DNA of 23,551 nt from the IMG/VR virus record IMGVR_UViG_3300042397_000536, positions 1-23,551 of that record; one strand, written 5' to 3'. The notes beneath the pieces are model-generated. The model did not search any database and had not been told where the DNA came from. It saw only the letters and a program-made list of their open reading frames with translations. Positions within the stretch are counted from its first letter, which is position 1; each line of letters begins with the position of its first letter. Position numbers and translations under genes: made by a program. This DNA comes from a virus. Of this stretch, positions 4,366-15,924 are shown one piece after another.

Positions 4366-4595
4366 TGTTTCACCCTCTAGAAAGTGATTTGAGCCTGCTA
4401 AAAGATCAGGATGTGGAAAACAAACTGATCGAATTGAACAAAAAATACCACGCAGCGGCCCGTTTGGGTAGTAGAGATCTCTTGACACAGCTATCAACTT
4501 TCATTACAATATATAGACAGGAACTTGCTAAAAGGCATGCAGAAAAAATGAAAAGCACAGATAGCGATCTAGGTCAATTGATCAATGTTGATTAA
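4365..4595 (+). CDS. Small alpha-helical protein of unknown function
   Basis: This is a 76-residue charged protein, predicted mainly helical (DVENKLIELNKKYHAAARL ... YRQELAKRHAEKM). It starts at an ATG overlapping the upstream TAA (TAATG) and runs 11 bases into the next gene, so all three are probably translationally coupled. I do not recognise a family. It sits at the border between the tail genes and the replication/chaperone block, and a near-consensus sigma70 promoter lies inside it. Confidence 0.6.
   Translation: MFHPLESDLSLLKDQDVENKLIELNKKYHAAARLGSRDLLTQLSTFITIYRQELAKRHAEKMKSTDSDLGQLINVD
4482..4510 (+). promoter_or_regulatory. Sigma70-type promoter inside the 76-residue gene
   Basis: A perfect -35 (TTGACA, 4482-4487) is followed after exactly 17 bases by TACAAT (4505-4510), a 5/6 match to the -10 consensus. 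The transcript would begin near 4517, about 70 bases before the DnaE-like gene. That would start the block running to 7731 independently of tail-gene transcription. The other two strong promoters in this window (12686, 22161) also have 17-base spacers. Confidence 0.6.
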
Positions 4596-5058
4596 TAACT
4601 CCACTGAACAACTGATACAAGGTATTCTCAGACACGGTCCGGATATACTGGAACATTGTCAAACTTCTGATGATCTAAGTCAATACATAGGTCAACTGCA
4701 AAAAGAACATCTGCATTATCCGATTCCCCCAAAAGATATCGATCCAACACATTGGTTTATTCCCAACGATTACTGCCCTAATTTGGTAGAATTTCTTTAC
4801 GGCGAATGCACTACTGACGAACAAAGAGATAGGGTATCGCAAGAACTAGAACTGTTTATATCAAACGATATGTATGATGTATTATATGTTATGAAATATA
4901 TAGTAGATACTCTTAGAGCTAATAACATCATATGGGGAGTAGGCCGTGGATCTAGTGTGGCCAGTTATGTGCTTCATATCATAGGGGTGCATAAGATAGA
5001 CCCGATTAAATACAACATACCAATAGAAGAATTCTTTAAGGAGAAACAAAATGGGTAG
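4585..5058 (+). CDS. Short DnaE-like protein (fragment of bacterial DNA polymerase III alpha core)
   Basis: The 157-residue product matches a small internal stretch of DnaE. Its EQRDRVSQELELF segment and the aromatic helix around YVMKYIVDTLRANNI lead into GVGRGSSVASY (118-128) and IDPIKYN (138-144). These correspond to the GPGRGSGAGS and DLDPLEF-type motifs of the DnaE palm region. The protein stops after IEEFFKE, just where DnaE continues into its catalytic aspartate motif (PDxDxDF), so the catalytic acids are absent. There is no PHP domain, tau-binding region or beta-binding region. It cannot be a polymerase. It may be a decoy, a nucleotide- or primer-binding factor, or a host replisome modulator (inference). 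It overlaps both neighbours and lies in the early-type block. Confidence 0.7.
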   Translation: MLINNSTEQLIQGILRHGPDILEHCQTSDDLSQYIGQLQKEHLHYPIPPKDIDPTHWFIPNDYCPNLVEFLYGECTTDEQRDRVSQELELFISNDMYDVLYVMKYIVDTLRANNIIWGVGRGSSVASYVLHIIGVHKIDPIKYNIPIEEFFKEKQNG

Positions 5059-5284: not shown

Positions 5285-5707
5285 ATGACTACATCATTCG
5301 AAGCACGAAAAATGCAGGTCCGACCGTTGAGCCAAGACATATTGGTGCACGGTATGGACATGGGGGAGCAGACAACTGCTGCAGGTATAGTGATCCACAG
5401 CGACGATGGCAAAGCTCATGGTGTTAAACCACGCTGGGCACAGGTCTATAAAGTAGGTGCTAGTTGTAAACTGGATGTTGAGCCAGGTCAATGGATACTG
5501 ATTGAACACGGTCGCTGGACCCGCAAGATCAAGATCGACGACGGTGAAAGCGTCAAAGAAGTCCAGAAAGTTGAAGTTTCTGCTGTGATAGCTGTCACAG
5601 ATCAAAAGCCCAATGATTTCTATATAGGTCAAGAATTCTCCAATGGATCTAGCATGAACATCAGTCCGCAAGATTTCCTACCTGGAAACATGTCCAAGAT
5701 CAGCTAA
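5285..5707 (+). CDS. GroES/gp31-like cochaperonin
   Basis: The 140-residue product aligns by eye with GroES: VRPLSQDILVHG at 12-23, a mobile-loop equivalent at 25-37 (MGEQTTAAGIVI, compare the GGIVL of GroES), AQVYKVG at 52-58, and the DVEPGQWILIEHG strand at 64-76. Cochaperonins cap the host GroEL. T4 gp31 replaces GroES so that the major capsid protein can fold in an enlarged cage. The C-terminus is longer than in GroES (about 97 residues) and gp31 (111). The conserved hydrophobic IVI tripeptide suggests that GroEL binding is retained. The stop overlaps the next ATG (TAATG). Confidence 0.8.
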   Translation: MTTSFEARKMQVRPLSQDILVHGMDMGEQTTAAGIVIHSDDGKAHGVKPRWAQVYKVGASCKLDVEPGQWILIEHGRWTRKIKIDDGESVKEVQKVEVSAVIAVTDQKPNDFYIGQEFSNGSSMNISPQDFLPGNMSKIS

Positions 5708-6327: not shown

Positions 6328-7247
6328 AAGAACTATGGGTAGAGAAATATCGTCCGAAAAAAATCAGTGAATACGTTTGGCGTGATGATAATCAACGCAA
6401 GCAGGTAGAAGCATGGATTCGAGAAAAAAGCATTCCCCATCTGCTGTTAAGTGGTACTCCTGGCATAGGCAAAACCACTATGGCCAAACTGTTGATCAGT
6501 GAGATCGGTATCGAGGACTATGATGTTCTAGAAATCAATGCCAGTCGTGAGCGTGGAATAGATCTCATGAAAGAAAAGATCACAAATTTTGTCAGCATGA
6601 TTCCCTTTGGTCCTTTCAAAGTGGTCTTGCTGGATGAAGCGGATCGACTGACACCGTTTGCGCAGGATGCTCTCAAAGGTGTTATGGAAGAGTATTCTAA
6701 CTTCAGTAGATTTATATTGACCTGTAATACTCCCAATATGATCGTTCCTGCGATTCACAGTCGTTGCCAACAGTTTCATTTTACTAAACTGGATCAAACT
6801 GAATACACAGCTAGAGCTGCCACTGTGTTGGTTGAAGAAGGCATAGACTTTGATCTCGACACCTTAGACAACTATGTCAAGGTGGCCTATCCTGATCTTC
6901 GCAAATGTCTCAACCTTCTGCAACAGCATTCCACGCAAGGCAAACTAACCATGCCTAGCGAAAGCGATACAGGTACCCTGGAATGGAAGTTTGACATGGT
7001 AGAACTGTTTAAGGCTGGCAAGATCACAGAAGCTCGTAAGATGTTGTGTGGCAAGATACAGGCTGATGAAATGATCGAAGTATATCGTTGGCTGTATATG
7101 AATCTTGAGATCTTTGGTGCTGAGGAAAATCAAGATAAAGCAGTGCTGTTAATCAAACAGGGACTGATAGATCATGTAGTGTGTGCCGACAGCGAAATCA
7201 ATCTATCTGCTACATTGATCAAACTTTCTAAACTAAATGTCAGATGA
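6324..7247 (+). CDS. 44: Sliding-clamp loader large subunit (T4 gp44-like AAA+ ATPase)
   Basis: This is a 307-residue RFC-small-subunit-type AAA+ protein, close to the 319 residues of T4 gp44. It starts with WVEKYRPKKISEYVW (the RFC box WxEKYRP). Walker A is GTPGIGKTT (44-52), Walker B VVLLDEAD (100-107), sensor 1 ILTCNTPN (131-138), and the SRC motif (146-148) carries the trans-acting arginine finger. It would load the sliding clamp onto primer-template DNA for the gp43-like polymerase whose gene starts at 22852. The expected gp62 partner is not seen next to it. The start is fixed by the RFC box and by GGAG before the ATG. Confidence 0.9.
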   Translation: MKELWVEKYRPKKISEYVWRDDNQRKQVEAWIREKSIPHLLLSGTPGIGKTTMAKLLISEIGIEDYDVLEINASRERGIDLMKEKITNFVSMIPFGPFKVVLLDEADRLTPFAQDALKGVMEEYSNFSRFILTCNTPNMIVPAIHSRCQQFHFTKLDQTEYTARAATVLVEEGIDFDLDTLDNYVKVAYPDLRKCLNLLQQHSTQGKLTMPSESDTGTLEWKFDMVELFKAGKITEARKMLCGKIQADEMIEVYRWLYMNLEIFGAEENQDKAVLLIKQGLIDHVVCADSEINLSATLIKLSKLNVR

Positions 7248-7731
7248 AAAATCAAACTTGGCCAAAGGCCGAGATAGTTTTGATGCCAAGATAGATAACA
7301 GTCTAGTTGCGTTTTTTAATAAGAATGTAACTCCGTATCCCACAGAGGTAGGCTCTCCTGCTTTTGACCTAATTCCCATTGAGAAGCAGAAAGACGTGAT
7401 GGTCAATGTGGCTCGCATGCACGGGCAACAGGAATACAATCGTATCATGCAATTGGTAGCAGTTCTACAGACACAGGCAGCGAGCATTAAACGTAGATTA
7501 GAAATTACCGATTGGGTTCATGCGGCCAAGTATCAGTTTCAGACCTATCATGGAAATATCTATTGGTTAGCACACGATACTCGCAACGGCGGAACTATAC
7601 TTGTGCATCACGGTCCGGATGAATGGTATACTGGTGCTCCAGAGAATTATAACTACATTTGCCGTGTAAAATGGTTGGGAGATTATACCTGGCTAGAAGT
7701 AGATGGTGACGGCAACCCTGTAAACGACTAA
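7237..7731 (+). CDS. DUF2452-family protein
   Basis: The 164-residue protein overlaps the end of the gp44-like gene by 11 bases. Conserved-looking stretches are YPTEVGSPAFDLIPIEKQKD, MHGQQEYNRIMQLV, DWVHAAKYQFQTYHG and YICRVKWLGDYTW. I recognise this pattern as DUF2452, found in bacteria and aquatic phages, with no established function. It occupies the position where T4 places gp62, but it does not resemble gp62. The TAA stop forms part of the terminator stem at 7730-7749. The start is the ATG at 7237, inside the upstream gene. Confidence 0.7.
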   Translation: MSDEKSNLAKGRDSFDAKIDNSLVAFFNKNVTPYPTEVGSPAFDLIPIEKQKDVMVNVARMHGQQEYNRIMQLVAVLQTQAASIKRRLEITDWVHAAKYQFQTYHGNIYWLAHDTRNGGTILVHHGPDEWYTGAPENYNYICRVKWLGDYTWLEVDGDGNPVND

Positions 7732-7749
7732 GGGGTCCTTAGACCCCTT
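7730..7749. terminator. Bidirectional hairpin between convergent genes
   Basis: AAGGGGTC (7730-7737), loop CTTA, GACCCCTT (7742-7749) form a perfect 8-bp GC-rich stem between the DUF2452 gene (+) and phoH (-). No long U-tract follows on the plus strand, so termination may be partial there. The position between converging stops fits a shared terminator. Confidence 0.65.
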
Positions 7750-7767
7750 GTATCTCCTTATGTAAGT

Positions 7768-8508
7768 TTAGGCGTCGCCGTAGATAGACAAAATCTCCTT
7801 AACAGCTTCGTGTCGCTCAACATCTTGCACATCAAATTTTACTAGATCCACATACCTGTGGCCCTGGAAGTTATTATACAATCCCAAAAATTCTAGTAGG
7901 CCGTTGTTGCTAGGACGATCAGCCTGCTGTAGGTCTCCTGTGACTACCATCTGGCTTCCCTGTCCTAATCGTGTCAGCAGCATTTTCATCTGACTAGGTG
8001 TGGCATTCTGCATTTCGTCAGCTACGACCACTGCATTTTTAAAAGTTCTACCTCGCATGTAGGCCAAAGGACTGGTTTCTATCACCCCCTCTTTGATAAA
8101 ATTTTCTATCTCTTTGGCGTTGAAATTTTCTGCGATTACATCAAATATTGGCTTGGTCCAAGGTGCCATTTTTTCATTTAGGTCCCCGGGCAAGAATCCG
8201 TGTTCTTCATCAACACTCACAGCAGGTCGAGTAACTATGATTTTATCTGCAGATCCGTACTTGAGTTGATCTATGGCCCATTGAACCGCCAGCATGGTTT
8301 TACCCGTACCGGCTGGACCGATAGCGAATACAATCATTTTGTTGGGATCGTTTAGTTTAAGTAGATAAGTCTCTTGGCTTAGACTCTTGGGATAAATCTG
8401 TACTCTTCTGCGTTTTTCATTTAATCTATGATCAATATTTATTACATTGTTAGGGAATCGTGGATCATATTGCTCTTTTTGCTGAACTTGCGCTCTTTTT
8501 CGCTTCAT
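7768..8508 (-). CDS. phoH: PhoH-like P-loop ATPase
   Basis: This 246-residue protein is the only minus-strand gene. The PhoH core is clear: SLSQETYLLKL, Walker A GPAGTGKT (64-71), TRPAVSVDEEHGFLPGDLNEKM-type segment, Walker B VVVADEMQN with D164/E165, LTRLGQGSQMVVTGDLQQ, and a C-terminal VERHEAVKEIL. A basic N-terminus (MKRKRAQVQQK) precedes it. PhoH proteins are ATPases related to superfamily 1 helicases and are common in marine phages. The link to phosphate stress does not hold in every case and the phage role is unresolved. AGGAGGG lies upstream of the ATG on the minus strand, with an 11-base gap. Confidence 0.9.
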   Translation of the reverse strand: MKRKRAQVQQKEQYDPRFPNNVINIDHRLNEKRRRVQIYPKSLSQETYLLKLNDPNKMIVFAIGPAGTGKTMLAVQWAIDQLKYGSADKIIVTRPAVSVDEEHGFLPGDLNEKMAPWTKPIFDVIAENFNAKEIENFIKEGVIETSPLAYMRGRTFKNAVVVADEMQNATPSQMKMLLTRLGQGSQMVVTGDLQQADRPSNNGLLEFLGLYNNFQGHRYVDLVKFDVQDVERHEAVKEILSIYGDA

Positions 8509-8535
8509 ATAAGGTTAGCCCTCCTGTAAGTGTTA

Positions 8536-8566
8536 GGCACGGACCTCAAACCGTAGTGTCCGTGTC
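8536..8566. promoter_or_regulatory. Inverted repeat in the phoH leader/intergenic region
   Basis: GGCACGGAC (8536-8544) pairs with GTCCGTGTC (8558-8566), with one G-U pair and a 13-base loop. It lies in the 140-base region between the divergent phoH and the 8649 gene, about 28 bases upstream of the phoH start. It could be an operator or an mRNA leader hairpin for phoH. Its function is not established. Confidence 0.4.
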
Positions 8567-8569
8567 CGA

Positions 8570-8579
8570 ACACATGTGT
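8570..8579. promoter_or_regulatory. 10-bp perfect palindrome ACACATGTGT
   Basis: A perfect palindrome lies four bases from the inverted repeat above, within the divergent intergenic region. Palindromes of this size can be dimeric-regulator sites, but a chance occurrence cannot be excluded. It is the only perfect palindrome of this length I noticed between divergent genes here. Confidence 0.25.
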
Positions 8580-8626
8580 ATTTAACACCTGGCTCTAAAA
8601 GTTATGTGTTATGTTTGTATTTTGAC

Positions 8627-8634
8627 GATAAATA
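8627..8634 (+). promoter_or_regulatory. Late promoter (GATAAATA)
   Basis: CGATAAATACA lies 14 bases before the ATG at 8649, in non-coding DNA, immediately upstream of a GGGAG ribosome binding site. It matches the T4-like late -10 element (TATAAATA) at 7/8 and is identical to the octamers before 16984 and 21254. It would drive the 8649-9909 pair and perhaps the lysis genes. Confidence 0.6.
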
Positions 8635-8648
8635 CAACGGGAGATAAT

Positions 8649-9182
8649 ATGGCAGATATTAAAGACGTTATAGCTAACATAGAACAGGTTTACGGTTCTA
8701 ACAACAGCTTGAATTTACTCAAAGATTTTGAACGTGTGATCGACGAACTAGATGTCTATGTCTACGACAACTGGCTAGACGGAGAACTGGTGTCTGGTCC
8801 TAAAGAATCCAGATATTTCGTGGAATGCACATTTATGTGGCCTGAAAAGGACATGCCGGAACCTGCAGGCGGAAAAAGACTGCTAGAGTACGGTTGCAAG
8901 GTACAGGTAGCTGAAACCGCGATATCAAAGGTGCGAAGGATCAAGACACCCGATGATATCCGCCCAGGCACACGCAAGGGCAAGATTGATCAAGAACCTG
9001 TGTGGATGATTAAAATCACTATGCCTAAGAAGTTGATGAACGACATCAATCGAGGCTACACAGAATTAGACAAGAACAAAATAGAGGACATAGTCAGTGC
9101 ATCGGGAGTTAATGCACAGATTGATCCTGCAGAACAACAAGCACAGGAAATGGCAAATGCACAACCAGCACCAGCAGCTTAA
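8649..9182 (+). CDS. Conserved-looking phage protein, late expressed, unknown function
   Basis: This is a 177-residue protein. The ATG at 8649 is chosen over the upstream in-frame ATG at 8604 because GGGAG lies just before it and the late-promoter octamer lies between the two. Sequence features are a helical N-terminus, an FVECTFMWPEKDMPEP strand-turn, an RIKTPDDIRPGTRKGK basic segment and an Ala/Gln/Pro-rich tail. There is no signal peptide or membrane segment. The promoter type suggests a virion or assembly role (inference). It overlaps the next gene by 26 bases. Confidence 0.65.
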   Translation: MADIKDVIANIEQVYGSNNSLNLLKDFERVIDELDVYVYDNWLDGELVSGPKESRYFVECTFMWPEKDMPEPAGGKRLLEYGCKVQVAETAISKVRRIKTPDDIRPGTRKGKIDQEPVWMIKITMPKKLMNDINRGYTELDKNKIEDIVSASGVNAQIDPAEQQAQEMANAQPAPAA

Positions 9183-9909
9183 CGAAGGTCTCAGAGCCGA
9201 CGATCTCAAAGAAATGGTTCATCCAACCTTTGAGGTAGATTCATTTAGATCCAAGATGGGTGAAGATCAAGACGTATGTGTGATCAGTTTCAAGGTCAAC
9301 GATCGTTCACCGGCCAAGGATCTCATGGAATTTATCGAGAAGGGATATGCTTTTGTGTTGGACGCAGATGTCAGCAGCGGAGAAGATAACCGCGGCGAGT
9401 ACTCTGTGTTTGTAGAAATAGCTCGCACAGCTAAACTGTCTGAGCAGATCAAAGAACTTACCTACGGTGTAAAAAAGCTCACAGGACTAGATGATCTAAA
9501 ATTTAAATATCATAAAGAAAATCAAGTACACGAAGCCACTGAAGAAAATCTCAAGAAAAAGATTCCTGACAATTCTTCTGCATATCAAGGACTGATGGAT
9601 CGCATGCGCACAGAAAGTGTGCGTGACTTTTTCACAAAAACTTTAATGGATGATCTCACTCTAGATGGTGACATCATTACCATCCACAAACCATTTGATC
9701 GTTCTATCAAGTTACAGATAGTCAAAGACGGTGCCACTGAATCTATACTAGAAGGCATAGATGACGGGTATACCGTAGACGAAACAGCCAGCAGTGAAAT
9801 GTTTTGGCTTACTAAAGTATTAGGTGACTACCATATAAATAAAATTGGTGAAAACTTTGTTTTCAACAACGGCGCAAGGTCTATGCTATTAAAAAGGACA
9901 GAACAATGA
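9157..9909 (+). CDS. Phage protein of unknown function, late expressed
   Basis: This is a 250-residue acidic protein. ATG 9157 is preferred because AGGAAA sits six bases before it; the frame is open further upstream (ATG 9097) but only inside the neighbouring gene. Recognisable stretches are VHPTFEVDSFRSKMG, VISFKVNDRSPAKDLMEFIEKGY and VRDFFTKTLMDDLTLDGD. No enzyme motif is identified. It is probably coupled to the 177-residue protein, suggesting a pair that acts together. The stop overlaps the endolysin start (ATGA). Confidence 0.6.
   Translation: MHNQHQQLNEGLRADDLKEMVHPTFEVDSFRSKMGEDQDVCVISFKVNDRSPAKDLMEFIEKGYAFVLDADVSSGEDNRGEYSVFVEIARTAKLSEQIKELTYGVKKLTGLDDLKFKYHKENQVHEATEENLKKKIPDNSSAYQGLMDRMRTESVRDFFTKTLMDDLTLDGDIITIHKPFDRSIKLQIVKDGATESILEGIDDGYTVDETASSEMFWLTKVLGDYHINKIGENFVFNNGARSMLLKRTEQ
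9834..9841 (+). promoter_or_regulatory. Candidate late promoter with exact T4 -10 octamer TATAAATA
   Basis: The exact T4 late octamer lies in the 3' end of the upstream gene, 65 bases before the endolysin ATG. It would be well placed to start the lysis cassette. It is also coding sequence (Ile-Asn-Lys), so chance is possible. Confidence 0.45.
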
Positions 9910-10532
9910 GCTTTACATTTAATTTTACTCAAGAACAGTTGAAAGAAATGATTCCACGGAATCCCTATGTACCACAGTGGTATGAAGCTATTTCAAGTAT
10001 TCTTCCAGAATATGAAATCAATACCCCACAACGTGTTGCAGCCTTCCTAGCACAGTGCGCACATGAAAGCGGTGGCTTTGTTTTCCTCAAAGAAAATCTC
10101 AACTACAAGGCACCTAGTCTGCGCAAGGTATTTCCTAAATACTTTTCAGACGATGCTACCGCAGTCGCATACGCCAACAAGCCAGAAAAGATCGCCAATA
10201 GAGTCTATGCTAATCGCATGGGCAACGGTGATGAATCATCAGGTGACGGATGGCGCTACTGTGGTCGCGGATTGATCCAGCTCACTGGCAAAGACAACTA
10301 CACATTCTTTGCGGCCAGCATAGATGTTCCTGTAGAGGAAGCTTCAGAATATCTGCAGACCTTTGAAGGTGCAGTGCAGAGTGCTTGTTTCTTTTGGGAA
10401 CAGAACAATCTCAACAAGTGGGCAGACGCAGGTGACATTCTCACTCTAACCAAGCGTATCAACGGTGGTACGATTGGATTGGAAGATCGCATCAAACATT
10501 ACGAACACGCATTGCATATCTTTGGAGCCTGA
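9906..10532 (+). CDS. Endolysin, glycoside hydrolase family 19 (chitinase-like)
   Basis: This is a 208-residue single-domain GH19 protein. AAFLAQCAHESGGF holds the catalytic acid E54. NLNYKAPSLRKVFPKYF follows, then ANRVYANRMGNGDESSGDGW with E110 as the probable catalytic base region and CGRGLIQLTGKDNY. GH19 phage endolysins cut the glycan strands of peptidoglycan. There is no signal peptide, so export must depend on a holin, consistent with the downstream membrane genes. The start overlaps the upstream stop (ATGA), with AGGA just upstream. Length is typical for globular Gram-negative endolysins. Confidence 0.9.
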   Translation: MSFTFNFTQEQLKEMIPRNPYVPQWYEAISSILPEYEINTPQRVAAFLAQCAHESGGFVFLKENLNYKAPSLRKVFPKYFSDDATAVAYANKPEKIANRVYANRMGNGDESSGDGWRYCGRGLIQLTGKDNYTFFAASIDVPVEEASEYLQTFEGAVQSACFFWEQNNLNKWADAGDILTLTKRINGGTIGLEDRIKHYEHALHIFGA

Positions 10533-12646: not shown

Positions 12647-12676
12647 TTCTTGTTCAGTAAATCTGTAGTAAATACT

Positions 12677-12707
12677 TAGGACTACTTGACGTAGTCCTAT
12701 TTTTATT
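12677..12707 (+). terminator. Rho-independent terminator of the lysis cassette
   Basis: TAGGACTAC (12677-12685), a 5-base loop TTGAC, and GTAGTCCTA (12691-12699) form a perfect 9-bp stem followed by TTTTTATT. It lies about 30 bases after the last lysis gene. The loop and the first base of the 3' arm double as the -35 box of the next promoter. Confidence 0.85.
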
Positions 12708-12714
12708 GTATACT
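12686..12714 (+). promoter_or_regulatory. Sigma70-type promoter of dnaJ, fused with the terminator
   Basis: The -35 is TTGACG (12686-12691), the spacer exactly 17 bases, and the -10 is TATACT (12709-12714). Each box matches consensus at 5/6. The -35 sits in the terminator loop and the U-tract forms the spacer. The expected transcription start is about 12720-12722, at the ATG of dnaJ (12721), so the mRNA should be leaderless or nearly so. No Shine-Dalgarno sequence is present before the ATG. Confidence 0.75.
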
Positions 12715-12720
12715 ATAAAC

Positions 12721-13566
12721 ATGGATTATTACGCTACCCTAGGATTAAAAAGAGGCGCCACAGACGCCGAAATCAAAAAGGCCTATCGATCGATGGCTAT
12801 GAAACACCATCCCGATCGAGGAGGTGATCAGGCCAAATTCAAAGAAATTTCTACGGCCTACGAATCGCTCAGCGATCCGGACAAACGCAGAATGATTGAT
12901 GCTGGTATGGATCCAAATCAGCAGGGCTTTCACCATCAAGGTCAACAGAACCCATTCGAGTTCCATTTTGGCACAGGTAATCTAAATGATCTGTTTGGAA
13001 ACTTTGGCTTCGGAGGTGGATTTGGCCGAGAACCTTTAAGAAAAAATAAAACCCTAAACATCACTATAGAGATTTCTCTAGAAGATGTCTTACAGGGCAA
13101 AGAACTCAATGCAGAAATAACCATACCCGGCGGTAAAAACAAAATGATCAATATTTCTATTCCAGCAGGAATAGAACATGGTCAACAAATACGCTACGAA
13201 GGTATGGGAGATAATTCCATACAAGGTCTAAGACCGGGCGATCTCATAGTGAATATACTGGTCAAACAACATGCTCGTTTTCAACGAGAGCGCACATCAT
13301 TGATCCTAGAACAACAGATTTCTGTATGGGATGCTGTGTTGGGCACAGACGTAACCATACAGACCTTAGATAATAAAACACTCAGCATCACTGTGCCAGC
13401 AGGCACACAGCCTGATACTGTATTAAGCTGCAGGGGCGAGGGCCTGCCTAATATGAGAAATAGACAGCGAGGAAACCTTTTGGTTAGACTAAAAGTGCAT
13501 GTGCCACAGAATCTCAGTCAAGATCAACGAGCACAGATTAAACAATTACAACAACAGGGAATATAA
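12721..13566 (+). CDS. dnaJ: DnaJ/CbpA-like cochaperone (class B Hsp40)
   Basis: This is a 281-residue protein. The J domain (1-60) starts MDYYATLGLKRGAT and holds H30-P31-D32, the motif that stimulates DnaK ATPase. A Gly/Phe-rich linker follows (about 83-103, FGFGGGFG). The C-terminal substrate-binding beta domains (about 110-265) include LEDVLQGKE, IPAGIEHGQQIRYEGMGD and GDLIVNILVKQHARFQRE. There are no CxxCxGxG zinc repeats, so it is class B, like CbpA. It should recruit the host DnaK. The ATG at 12721 is preferred to a TTG at 12706, which lies upstream of the predicted transcript. It is followed four bases later by clpA. A host-derived acquisition is likely but its age cannot be judged. 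Confidence 0.9.
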   Translation: MDYYATLGLKRGATDAEIKKAYRSMAMKHHPDRGGDQAKFKEISTAYESLSDPDKRRMIDAGMDPNQQGFHHQGQQNPFEFHFGTGNLNDLFGNFGFGGGFGREPLRKNKTLNITIEISLEDVLQGKELNAEITIPGGKNKMINISIPAGIEHGQQIRYEGMGDNSIQGLRPGDLIVNILVKQHARFQRERTSLILEQQISVWDAVLGTDVTIQTLDNKTLSITVPAGTQPDTVLSCRGEGLPNMRNRQRGNLLVRLKVHVPQNLSQDQRAQIKQLQQQGI

Positions 13567-13569
13567 ACA

Positions 13570-15924
13570 GTGATAGAACCCAGCAAACACCTACAAGATA
13601 TTTTTGAAAATTCTATCAATTTGGCCAAAGGTCTTGGACATGAGTACATTACTATAGAACATATTGTATATGCTATGATCAGTGATCAAGAAACCTATAC
13701 TCTGTTAGAAAGTTTTGGCGCAGATGCTGCCTTTGTTAAAACTAATCTCGATCACTATCTAAAAAACAATCTCAACGACATTAAGACCACAGAAAAAAAC
13801 TATAAACCTAAAAAAACTAATTCAGTAGAGCGTGTGCTGAATCGCTGTTTTACTCAGGTGCTGTTCAGTGGACGTCAGCGCATGGAAGTAGCTGACGTGA
13901 TTATCAGTGTGCTCAGTGAAAAGAACAGTTTTGGTTTTTACTTTCTACAAAAAGGCGGAGTCACTAAAGAAAAGTTTGTGAAATTTTTCCAAGAAAATGT
14001 CGTACAAACTGAATCTGTAGATGTCGAAGGCGAAATCAAACAGGTTACCAATAATCAGGTAGATCGTATTCTTAATCAATTCTGCACGAATCTTAGTCTC
14101 AAAGCCAAACAACGCAAGATTGATCCAGTGATTGGGCGAGATGAAGAGATTGAAAAAATACAGTTGGTGTTGGCTCGTAGAAATAAATCAAACGTGTTGA
14201 TGGTGGGAGATCCAGGAGTGGGCAAAACTGCCATCGCCGAAGGGATCGCTCGCAAGATACATGAAAAGAAAGTTCCTAAATTCATACAGGACCATCAGGT
14301 CTATACCTTAGATATCTCAGCTATGTTGGCTGGATCCAAATATCGAGGAGATTTTGAAGAACGTGTCAAGGCAGTGTTGGCGGCTCTGGAAAAGAAAGGC
14401 AAGATTATCCTGTTTATCGATGAAGCACACATGATGCAGGGAGCAGGAGCAGCTAATCAAAGTTCCAACGACATGAGCAACATGCTGAAACCCATATTGA
14501 CTAAAGGTGTTATCAAGCTGATAGCATCTACAACCTGGGAAGAATATCGCAAACACTTTGAAAGTGATCGTGCTCTGATGCGTAGATTCCAACGTGTGAC
14601 TATTGAGGAACCTTCTGAGGAAATGTCTGTGAAGATTCTAAAAGGACTTAAAAAGTACTATGAAAGTCATCACAATGTTAAAATATCAGATGCTGCCATA
14701 GAACAAGCAGTCAAACTCAGTGTTAAGTATATGGCAGATAAAAAGCTACCCGACAAGGCTATTGATATCATAGATTGCGCCAGTGCCAGATATAAATTAA
14801 AAGATGAAGAAGGTATGGAAGGTATACCGCAGATTGTAGACATTGAACAGGTGACTTACGAATTGAGTAAGATGATTAACATGCCTTTAGAAACCGTGGC
14901 ACAAAAAGAATCAAAGAATCTCAGTGATTTAGATTCGCAGATGAAGGGTGTGGTCTATGGTCAAGATCGTGCAGTCGAAACACTGTTGGATAAAATCTTT
15001 GTAAGCCAGGCAGGTATGAAAGCTCCTAACAAACCAATTGGTAGTTTTTTATTTTCGGGCCCAACAGGCACAGGAAAAACAGAAACTGCTAAACAACTTG
15101 CAGACAAGATGGGCATGCAGTTGATCCGATTTGACATGGGCGAATATCAGGAGAAACATTCTGTGTCACGATTAATTGGTGCTCCTCCGGGGTATGTGGG
15201 TTACGAAGATAATGCAGGGCAGTTGATTACTAAACTACAAGAACATGCTAACAGTATCTTACTACTAGATGAAGTAGAAAAAGCACATCCAGATGTCATG
15301 AATATTTTGTTGGCATTCATGGATAATGGATTCGTTACAGGATCGAATGGCAAACAGGCTGATGGTCGCAACTGCATCCTGATTATGACCAGTAATCTAG
15401 GTGCTGCAGACAATGAACGTAACTCGATAGGGTTTGGTACACTGGAACGTGACGACGAAGATGACAAGGCCATTAAGAAATTCTTTGCTCCCGAATTTCG
15501 TAATCGACTAGATGCTGTTATCAAATTTGGCAAGTTGGACCACAAAGTGGTTGAACAGATTGTTAAGAAGTTTGTGGGAGATCTCAATTCACAACTCAAA
15601 GACAAAGGCATAGAGATAATATTAACCGCCAAGGCAGCAAAATATCTAGCAGAGCGTGGCTATGATTCCAAGATGGGTGCTAGACCGTTGGCAAGATTGA
15701 TAGACAATGAAGTTAAATCACCCCTGAGTCGCAGAGTGCTGTTTGGGGATCTAGTCAACGGTGGTCGTGTTACTGTAGACATTGTAGATGATAAACTAGA
15801 TTTTGTTGTAACTGAATTGCCTAAACCGTTGACCAAAGCTGAACGCAAATTGCTGAAAGCACAACAGAGTCTAGAAGAGGCTGAAAAAAATGCAGAACCA
15901 GAAAATCAAATACACCAATCATAA
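13570..15924 (+). CDS. clpA: ClpA-like AAA+ unfoldase with ClpP-docking loop
   Basis: This is a 784-residue protein (E. coli ClpA has 758) from a GTG start, with an ACAGGGA purine tract upstream. The N-domain (about 1-150) has EYITIEHIVYAM like Clp N-repeats. In D1, Walker A is GDPGVGKT (213-220) and Walker B FIDEAH has D284/E285. In D2, Walker A is GPTGTGKT (497-504), Walker B LLLDEVEKAHP has D567/E568, pore-2-type APPGYVGYE is present, and sensor 2 is GARP (703-706). There is no ClpB-type middle domain. Residues 620-622 are IGF in NSIGFG, aligned with the IGL loop that docks ClpA on ClpP, so partnership with host ClpP is expected. The C-terminus carries an extra acidic/basic helix. All ATPase residues I can identify are intact. 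Confidence 0.9.
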   Translation: MIEPSKHLQDIFENSINLAKGLGHEYITIEHIVYAMISDQETYTLLESFGADAAFVKTNLDHYLKNNLNDIKTTEKNYKPKKTNSVERVLNRCFTQVLFSGRQRMEVADVIISVLSEKNSFGFYFLQKGGVTKEKFVKFFQENVVQTESVDVEGEIKQVTNNQVDRILNQFCTNLSLKAKQRKIDPVIGRDEEIEKIQLVLARRNKSNVLMVGDPGVGKTAIAEGIARKIHEKKVPKFIQDHQVYTLDISAMLAGSKYRGDFEERVKAVLAALEKKGKIILFIDEAHMMQGAGAANQSSNDMSNMLKPILTKGVIKLIASTTWEEYRKHFESDRALMRRFQRVTIEEPSEEMSVKILKGLKKYYESHHNVKISDAAIEQAVKLSVKYMADKKLPDKAIDIIDCASARYKLKDEEGMEGIPQIVDIEQVTYELSKMINMPLETVAQKESKNLSDLDSQMKGVVYGQDRAVETLLDKIFVSQAGMKAPNKPIGSFLFSGPTGTGKTETAKQLADKMGMQLIRFDMGEYQEKHSVSRLIGAPPGYVGYEDNAGQLITKLQEHANSILLLDEVEKAHPDVMNILLAFMDNGFVTGSNGKQADGRNCILIMTSNLGAADNERNSIGFGTLERDDEDDKAIKKFFAPEFRNRLDAVIKFGKLDHKVVEQIVKKFVGDLNSQLKDKGIEIILTAKAAKYLAERGYDSKMGARPLARLIDNEVKSPLSRRVLFGDLVNGGRVTVDIVDDKLDFVVTELPKPLTKAERKLLKAQQSLEEAEKNAEPENQIHQS

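Follow-up and report, generated by a model that had tools for sequence, protein, structure and literature searches.

Organization of the dnaJ–clpA Locus

The window analyzed here, a virus record of 23,551 bases (IMG/VR IMGVR_UViG_3300042397_000536), contains a dnaJ gene, a clpA gene, a third gene that overlaps the 3′ end of clpA and is referred to as gene X, and a compact candidate expression element upstream of dnaJ (Table 1). The DNA is taken to come from a large T4-like phage of an aquatic setting. It carries replication and head genes of the T4 type (phrog_168, clamp loader, 254 bits; phrog_931, head morphogenesis), together with PhoH, an endolysin, and virion genes; the neighbors of dnaJ and clpA are virion and lysis genes. 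The gene at 5285, called GroES-like in a first-pass annotation of this DNA, has phrog_931 “head morphogenesis” as its best PHROG (51 bits, compared to 23 bits for the GroES PHROG) and is probably a co-chaperonin of the T4 gp31 type. Elsewhere in the window, positions 4585–5055 encode a 157-aa fragment of a bacterial DNA polymerase III alpha (PF07733, phrog_11127), and a T4-type polymerase gene also seems to be present at the right end.

Table 1. Coordinates of features at the dnaJ–clpA locus (positions in the window).
Feature	Position	Strand	Basis or remark
TAAATA, T4-late-promoter-like element	12669..12674	+	43/43 distinct relatives; putative function
Terminator-like hairpin, 9 bp, 5-nt loop, T tract, −35 box in loop	12677..12699	+	Fold, covariation
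Sigma70-type promoter (putative), TTGACG-17-TATACT, ends 6 nt before dnaJ ATG	12686..12714	+	Conservation
dnaJ, class B J-domain protein, 281 aa	12721..13566	+	Pfam DnaJ, DnaJ_C; phrog_14336; HPD
clpA, two-ring AAA+ unfoldase (predicted), 784 aa, GTG start	13570..15924	+	Pfam, TIGR02639, structures, tree
ClpA D1 Walker A, GDPGVGKT, residues 213–220	14206..14229	+	
ClpA D2 Walker A, GPTGTGKT, residues 497–504	15058..15081	+	
IGF of ClpP-docking loop, residues 620–622	15427..15435	+	Aligns with E. coli IGL 617–619
Gene X, conserved unknown protein, 226 aa	15890..16570	+	80/80 relatives; overlaps clpA 3′ end by 35 nt

The dnaJ product matches the Pfam J domain (77 bits) and DnaJ_C (144 bits), carries HPD at residues 30–32, and contains no CxxC zinc-finger motifs, a combination that identifies it as a class B, CbpA-like J protein, in agreement with the first-pass annotation. 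An in-frame TTG also exists at 12706; the ATG at 12721 is the conserved start and the better choice. The two genes are adjacent, as had been noted, and are spaced by 3 nt rather than by the 4 bases given earlier.

Domain Structure and Docking Loop of the Phage ClpA

Domain searches, a phylogeny, and a survey of related phages had been suggested as checks on the annotation of clpA. The window ClpA matches Clp_N, AAA, AAA_lid_9, AAA_2, and ClpB_D2-small in that order, each above the Pfam cut-off, and the solved structures that match it best are those of E. coli ClpA (657–658 bits). The Walker A motifs at residues 213 and 497 are paired with Walker B motifs at 279 and 563, the pore loops read KYRG at 257 and GYVG at 541, arginine-finger motifs are present, and the docking-loop pattern [IVL]G[FL] is found at the D2 position. 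The earlier description of a full two-AAA ClpA with both Walker pairs and an IGF tripeptide is borne out by the sequence. Against the NCBIfam model for ClpA (TIGR02639), the match extends over the full length at 884 bits and does not reach the cut-off of 993 bits. Based on this score and the tree, we assign the protein to a phage ClpA subfamily, not to the bacterial ClpA equivalog.

In a maximum-likelihood tree, phage ClpAs from freshwater contigs, RaK2, GAP32, XaC1, PA5oct, SCTP-2, Atu_ph07, and Phosso form one clade with a support of 99, beside but separate from bacterial ClpA and apart from ClpB and ClpC; the tree is a quick IQ-TREE calculation with SH-aLRT support only, in which branches are long and the inner order is unsure. 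The monophyly of the phage proteins rules out a recent host-to-phage capture, and clpA is, on this phylogeny, an old phage gene. Two matches of 57% and 53% that are labeled bacterial (L102 and L103, from Neomarinimicrobiota and Pacearchaeota MAG contigs) group within the phage clade, and we take them as probably misbinned phage DNA. At another locus (L081, 7645–10454), the ClpA N-domain (8139–8621) and D1–D2 (8754–10454) lie in separate frames, which reflects either a natural split or a frameshift.

Of 74 aligned phage sequences, 72 keep IGF and the other two are ClpB/ClpC-like, and the ClpA motifs are intact across phages; IGV motifs lie roughly at the place of IGF in RaK2 and in Vibrio phage 2.275.O. 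Since dN/dS over the whole gene is 0.02–0.03 between the window and its near relatives (the L003–L006 lineage), clpA is not a product of chance, and the docking-loop codons within this group show synonymous differences only. Conserved docking motifs alone do not prove that ClpA docks on ClpP; from the conserved IGF loop, ClpA is very probably ClpP-dependent.

Conservation of Gene Order and the Overlapping Gene X

Near-full-length ClpA/ClpB-type matches were found in at least 106 phage records, a number in which some ClpB-type and contaminant entries are included; a scan of viral contigs yielded at least 582 ClpA relatives. Together with examples in the literature, these counts contradict the earlier impression that such a gene pair is uncommon in T4-like phages. 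Eighty loci were fetched, 67 of which had enough flanking sequence for dnaJ, and in all 67 of these metagenomic relatives dnaJ lies upstream of clpA, either directly or with a peptide deformylase gene between the two (46/67). The window, L004–L006, most of L008–L021, and a few other loci are without the deformylase gene at this position. RaK2-type phages and SCTP-2 carry clpA without an adjoining dnaJ. Judged by position, dnaJ and clpA would belong to one operon.

Gene X, which the first-pass annotation missed, overlaps clpA in all 80 relatives, by 8–65 nt. Distant homologues, clear in L389, L391, and L394 and weak in L397, L406, and L413, overlap or adjoin clpA in these six further phages. 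The AF2 model of the protein (pLDDT 92) has no match among PDB folds at E≤0.001, and its matches in a viral structure set are uncharacterized phage proteins only, including a weak one from Atu_ph07. The idea of a known adaptor was rejected, as searches of Pfam, NCBIfam, PHROG, and PDB folds gave no match to gene X. Alternatively, gene X might encode a ClpA adaptor or regulator that is specific to phages, adopts a new fold, is translationally coupled to clpA, and chooses the targets of phage or host ClpP, with the loss of clpP in the branch of the window (see below) leading to a commandeered host ClpP. We regard this combined proposal as quite unlikely; for gene X, adaptor and structural roles are equally possible.

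A Conserved Candidate Promoter Element Upstream of dnaJ

The element spans positions 12669–12720, running from TAAATA through the hairpin with its T tract and the sigma70-type promoter to the dnaJ ATG. The gene strand of the window contains 14 copies of TAAATA, mostly shortly 5′ of gene starts, versus 3 on the opposite strand, and the motif lies upstream of the hairpin in every distinct relative. The hairpin is predicted to fold at −12.9 kcal/mol (z −5.3); across 26 aligned relatives, 5 of 8 consensus stem pairs show compensatory change and the TTGAC of the loop is invariant. Both sigma70 hexamers are kept in 36 of the 43 distinct relatives, with a spacer of 17 nt in 35 of the 36, and the consensus reads TTGAC[AG] for the −35 box, a 17-nt spacer, and TATAAT or TATACT, with the dnaJ ATG usually 6 nt on. 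A hairpin without an intact sigma70 pattern is seen in 7 relatives. The same test finds few such elements elsewhere, 7 per genome in the relatives G001 and G011.

The case for a promoter is made by this conservation across relatives, a single-sequence scan of the window having returned nothing above chance. We infer that a host-type promoter yields a leaderless dnaJ mRNA, in addition to late transcription; the operon is probably expressed both early and late, from the sigma70-type and the T4-late-like promoters. A transcript directed by TAAATA would start near or inside the left arm of the hairpin and, to speculate, might escape the terminator.

ClpP, ClpS, DnaK, and Hsp20 in Related Phages

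The window is a 23.5-kb fragment, and the likely partners of its ClpA were sought in relatives. Among isolates that carry ClpA, 8 of 8 genomes searched also encode ClpP. ClpA, ClpP, and ClpS occur together in large contigs, several of which have DnaK as well (G011, 364 kb; G013, 400 kb; G026, 150 kb), and no DnaK was found in the large contigs G014–G017; these contigs were picked for carrying ClpP, ClpS, or DnaK, and the counts thus give no frequency. The canonical phage ClpP retains Ser and His of the catalytic triad in 83/83 sequences and Asp in 82/83, with one gap. In its docking cleft, L48, F82, and L114 are kept in 83/83 and R192 in 79/83, and Y60, I90, and F112 vary. Phage ClpS retains the N-degron pocket, with N34, D35, and T38 in 73/73 sequences, H66 in 72/73, and M40 in 65/73; the Pro25 junction is likewise kept in 73/73. 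Cleft and pocket positions follow the E. coli numbering of the literature. An hsp20 gene is located directly upstream of clpS in 79 of 80 clpS loci.

The closest relative, G001, is collinear with the window, encodes a ClpA that is 98% identical, and carries a DnaK–Hsp20–ClpS cluster at 11.7–14.4 kb. The cluster is present in other relatives as well, and ClpS is encoded in G001 and most other relatives, at a site outside the window. No phage GrpE was found, and host GrpE would still be needed for the DnaK system. Production of N-degrons by the phage through Aat was rejected, as Aat was not found in the phages. A second, divergent ClpP-like protein (L398 [G023 116186–116704], L384, L390, and L407), sometimes encoded beside canonical clpP, was rejected as a partner of ClpA on account of its lost docking-cleft residues, the triad being kept; the match in G023 has an in-frame stop. 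The G001 locus L099 also contains, at 6498–8774, curlin-repeat-like and CsgG-like genes as judged by eye, with counterparts at 283585–285406 in G011.

Absence of clpP from Its Usual Site in the Closest Relatives

The clpP gene lies beside an HNH gene in 72 of 75 comparable loci, mostly between HNH and cupin genes; three far relatives without this arrangement and two loci with short flanks were set aside. In the nearest loci, G001, L531, and L532, the HNH and cupin genes are direct neighbors and clpP is absent. No ClpP family match was found elsewhere in G001 (280 kb), and a contig gap was rejected as the cause, as the flanking genes are present and adjacent. In G002–G004 and G023 the clpP locus itself is absent from the contigs, which may reflect a contig gap. 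The loss is seen in G001 and the two further loci; the corresponding site of the window lies outside the fragment, and its state is extrapolated from these closest relatives.

The residues flanking IGF differ as well, with NSIGFGTL in the ClpP-less lineage versus NTIGFG[DE]L in other relatives, possibly a sign of a changed partner. Because the IGF loop is under selection in the absence of a phage clpP, docking to host ClpP appears likeliest for ClpA in the sublineage of the window. The first-pass annotation had proposed that the phage redirects both the host DnaK system and host ClpP. As a general rule this does not hold: G001 has its own DnaK, as do many relatives, and relatives carry their own ClpP and ClpS. 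The host ClpP part of the proposal is likely to apply to the window's sublineage, where clpP is missing from its usual site.

A Model for a Phage-Encoded Clp and Chaperone System

The reading toward which we lean is that these phages encode a Clp protease and chaperone system, the likely partner in the branch of the window being host ClpP. dnaJ–clpA–X would form the core operon of a protein-quality-control system in large T4-like phages. ClpA would be a working unfoldase whose IGF loops dock on ClpP and to which phage ClpS delivers N-degron substrates, and DnaJ, with phage DnaK, Hsp20, and host GrpE, would keep proteins foldable or hand over the failures. Most of the family encodes its own ClpP, in addition to the peptide deformylase encoded between dnaJ and clpA. 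In the branch of the window, with no deformylase at that position and a nearest sequenced relative that is also without clpP, ClpA would dock on host ClpP. Two promoter types would allow the operon to be used early and late. ClpP assembly, adaptor use, timing, and substrates in this model are predictions, set beside the observed genes, motifs, gene order, co-occurrence, missing clpP, selection, and promoter conservation.

ClpA and DnaJ could instead function mainly in a ClpP-independent remodeling or assembly of virion proteins, late in infection and with the nearby T4 gp31-type GroES. Such a role would suit a cassette that lies among virion and lysis genes in the window and adjoins structural genes detected by mass spectrometry in PA5oct, the location of ClpA among tail-sheath and virion genes in RaK2, GAP32, XaC1, and Vibrio phage 2.275.O, the late-like TAAATA before dnaJ, and the retention of ClpA without clpP in G001. 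We nevertheless consider it unlikely, given the purifying selection on the IGF loop, the phage ClpP and ClpS that accompany ClpA, and a sigma70-type promoter that points to early expression too.

The first-pass model, in which DnaJ and ClpA are all that the phage provides and the DnaK and ClpP of the host are redirected, is very improbable in light of the DnaK, Hsp20, and ClpS of G001 and the ClpP found in most of the family, even though DnaJ and ClpA are the only members of the set within the window, clpP is gone from its site in the nearest relatives, and the search for a phage GrpE was negative. A general buffering of stress, with the genes topping up host proteostasis during a long large-phage infection and having no specific targets, would account for the broad chaperone set, including deformylase and Hsp20, and a similar idea has been put forward for Atu_ph07 (PMC6102473). 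It leaves the obligately overlapping, phage-specific gene X and the phage-only ClpA clade unexplained, however, and is highly doubtful. If the machine works as the Clp and chaperone model predicts, it would reveal how proteome control in infected cells is achieved by large phages.

Relation to Known Systems

The component genes were already known: the gene list of Atu_ph07 includes ClpA, ClpP, ClpS, and DnaJ (PMC6102473), and a comparison of jumbo phages reports the same four in some genomes and proposes that HSP70 and ClpAP of the host are used (PMC7824862). The main text of a 2026 review of jumbo-phage biology is without Clp or chaperones (PMC13282480). The conserved cassette, gene X, the loss of clpP, and the promoter appear to be new. 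In the literature searched, which covered few subscription papers, we found neither the dnaJ–(deformylase)–clpA–X and hsp20–clpS modules nor a loss of clpP with a retained loop nor the promoter element. Whereas phage chaperones and proteases are usually catalogued singly as oddities, they form conserved linked modules here, with an uncharacterized gene that accompanies clpA in all near relatives. The natural loss of clpP makes the choice between own and host ClpP testable by comparison, and the compact promoter-in-terminator element with its predicted leaderless mRNA is a further point of interest.

E. coli ClpAPS (PDB 6w1z, 1r6b; PMC9663308) resembles the phage system in domains, pore loops, and docking-loop position, and phage ClpS and ClpP retain its key residues. 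In contrast to E. coli ClpA, which has IGL and adjacent clpS–clpA genes, the phage protein has IGF, belongs to its own clade, and has DnaJ and gene X as gene partners. Moraphages are likewise large aquatic phages with ClpA in their core set and DnaK/DnaJ in some; unlike here, ClpP, ClpS, and deformylase are absent from the main text of the report (PMC12619734).

Among isolates, Atu_ph07 (PMC6102473) has clpA directly after dnaJ, without an intervening deformylase gene, and encodes ClpP and ClpS elsewhere in its genome; its ClpA is ∼39% identical, however, no DnaK was found, and gene X was not found beside clpA. Sinorhizobium phage Phosso (dnaJ–deformylase–clpA) and Pseudomonas phage PA5oct (dnaJ–clpA) similarly encode phage ClpP and ClpS, but their ClpAs show about 42–44% identity, with no DnaK found and no gene X match beside clpA. 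In PA5oct (L132, 956–15069), genes for FtsH, an FtsH-interacting membrane protein, S21, and a “polyubiquitin-like protein” are located near clpS and clpP, and ClpP and FtsH of this phage are annotated as detected by mass spectrometry.
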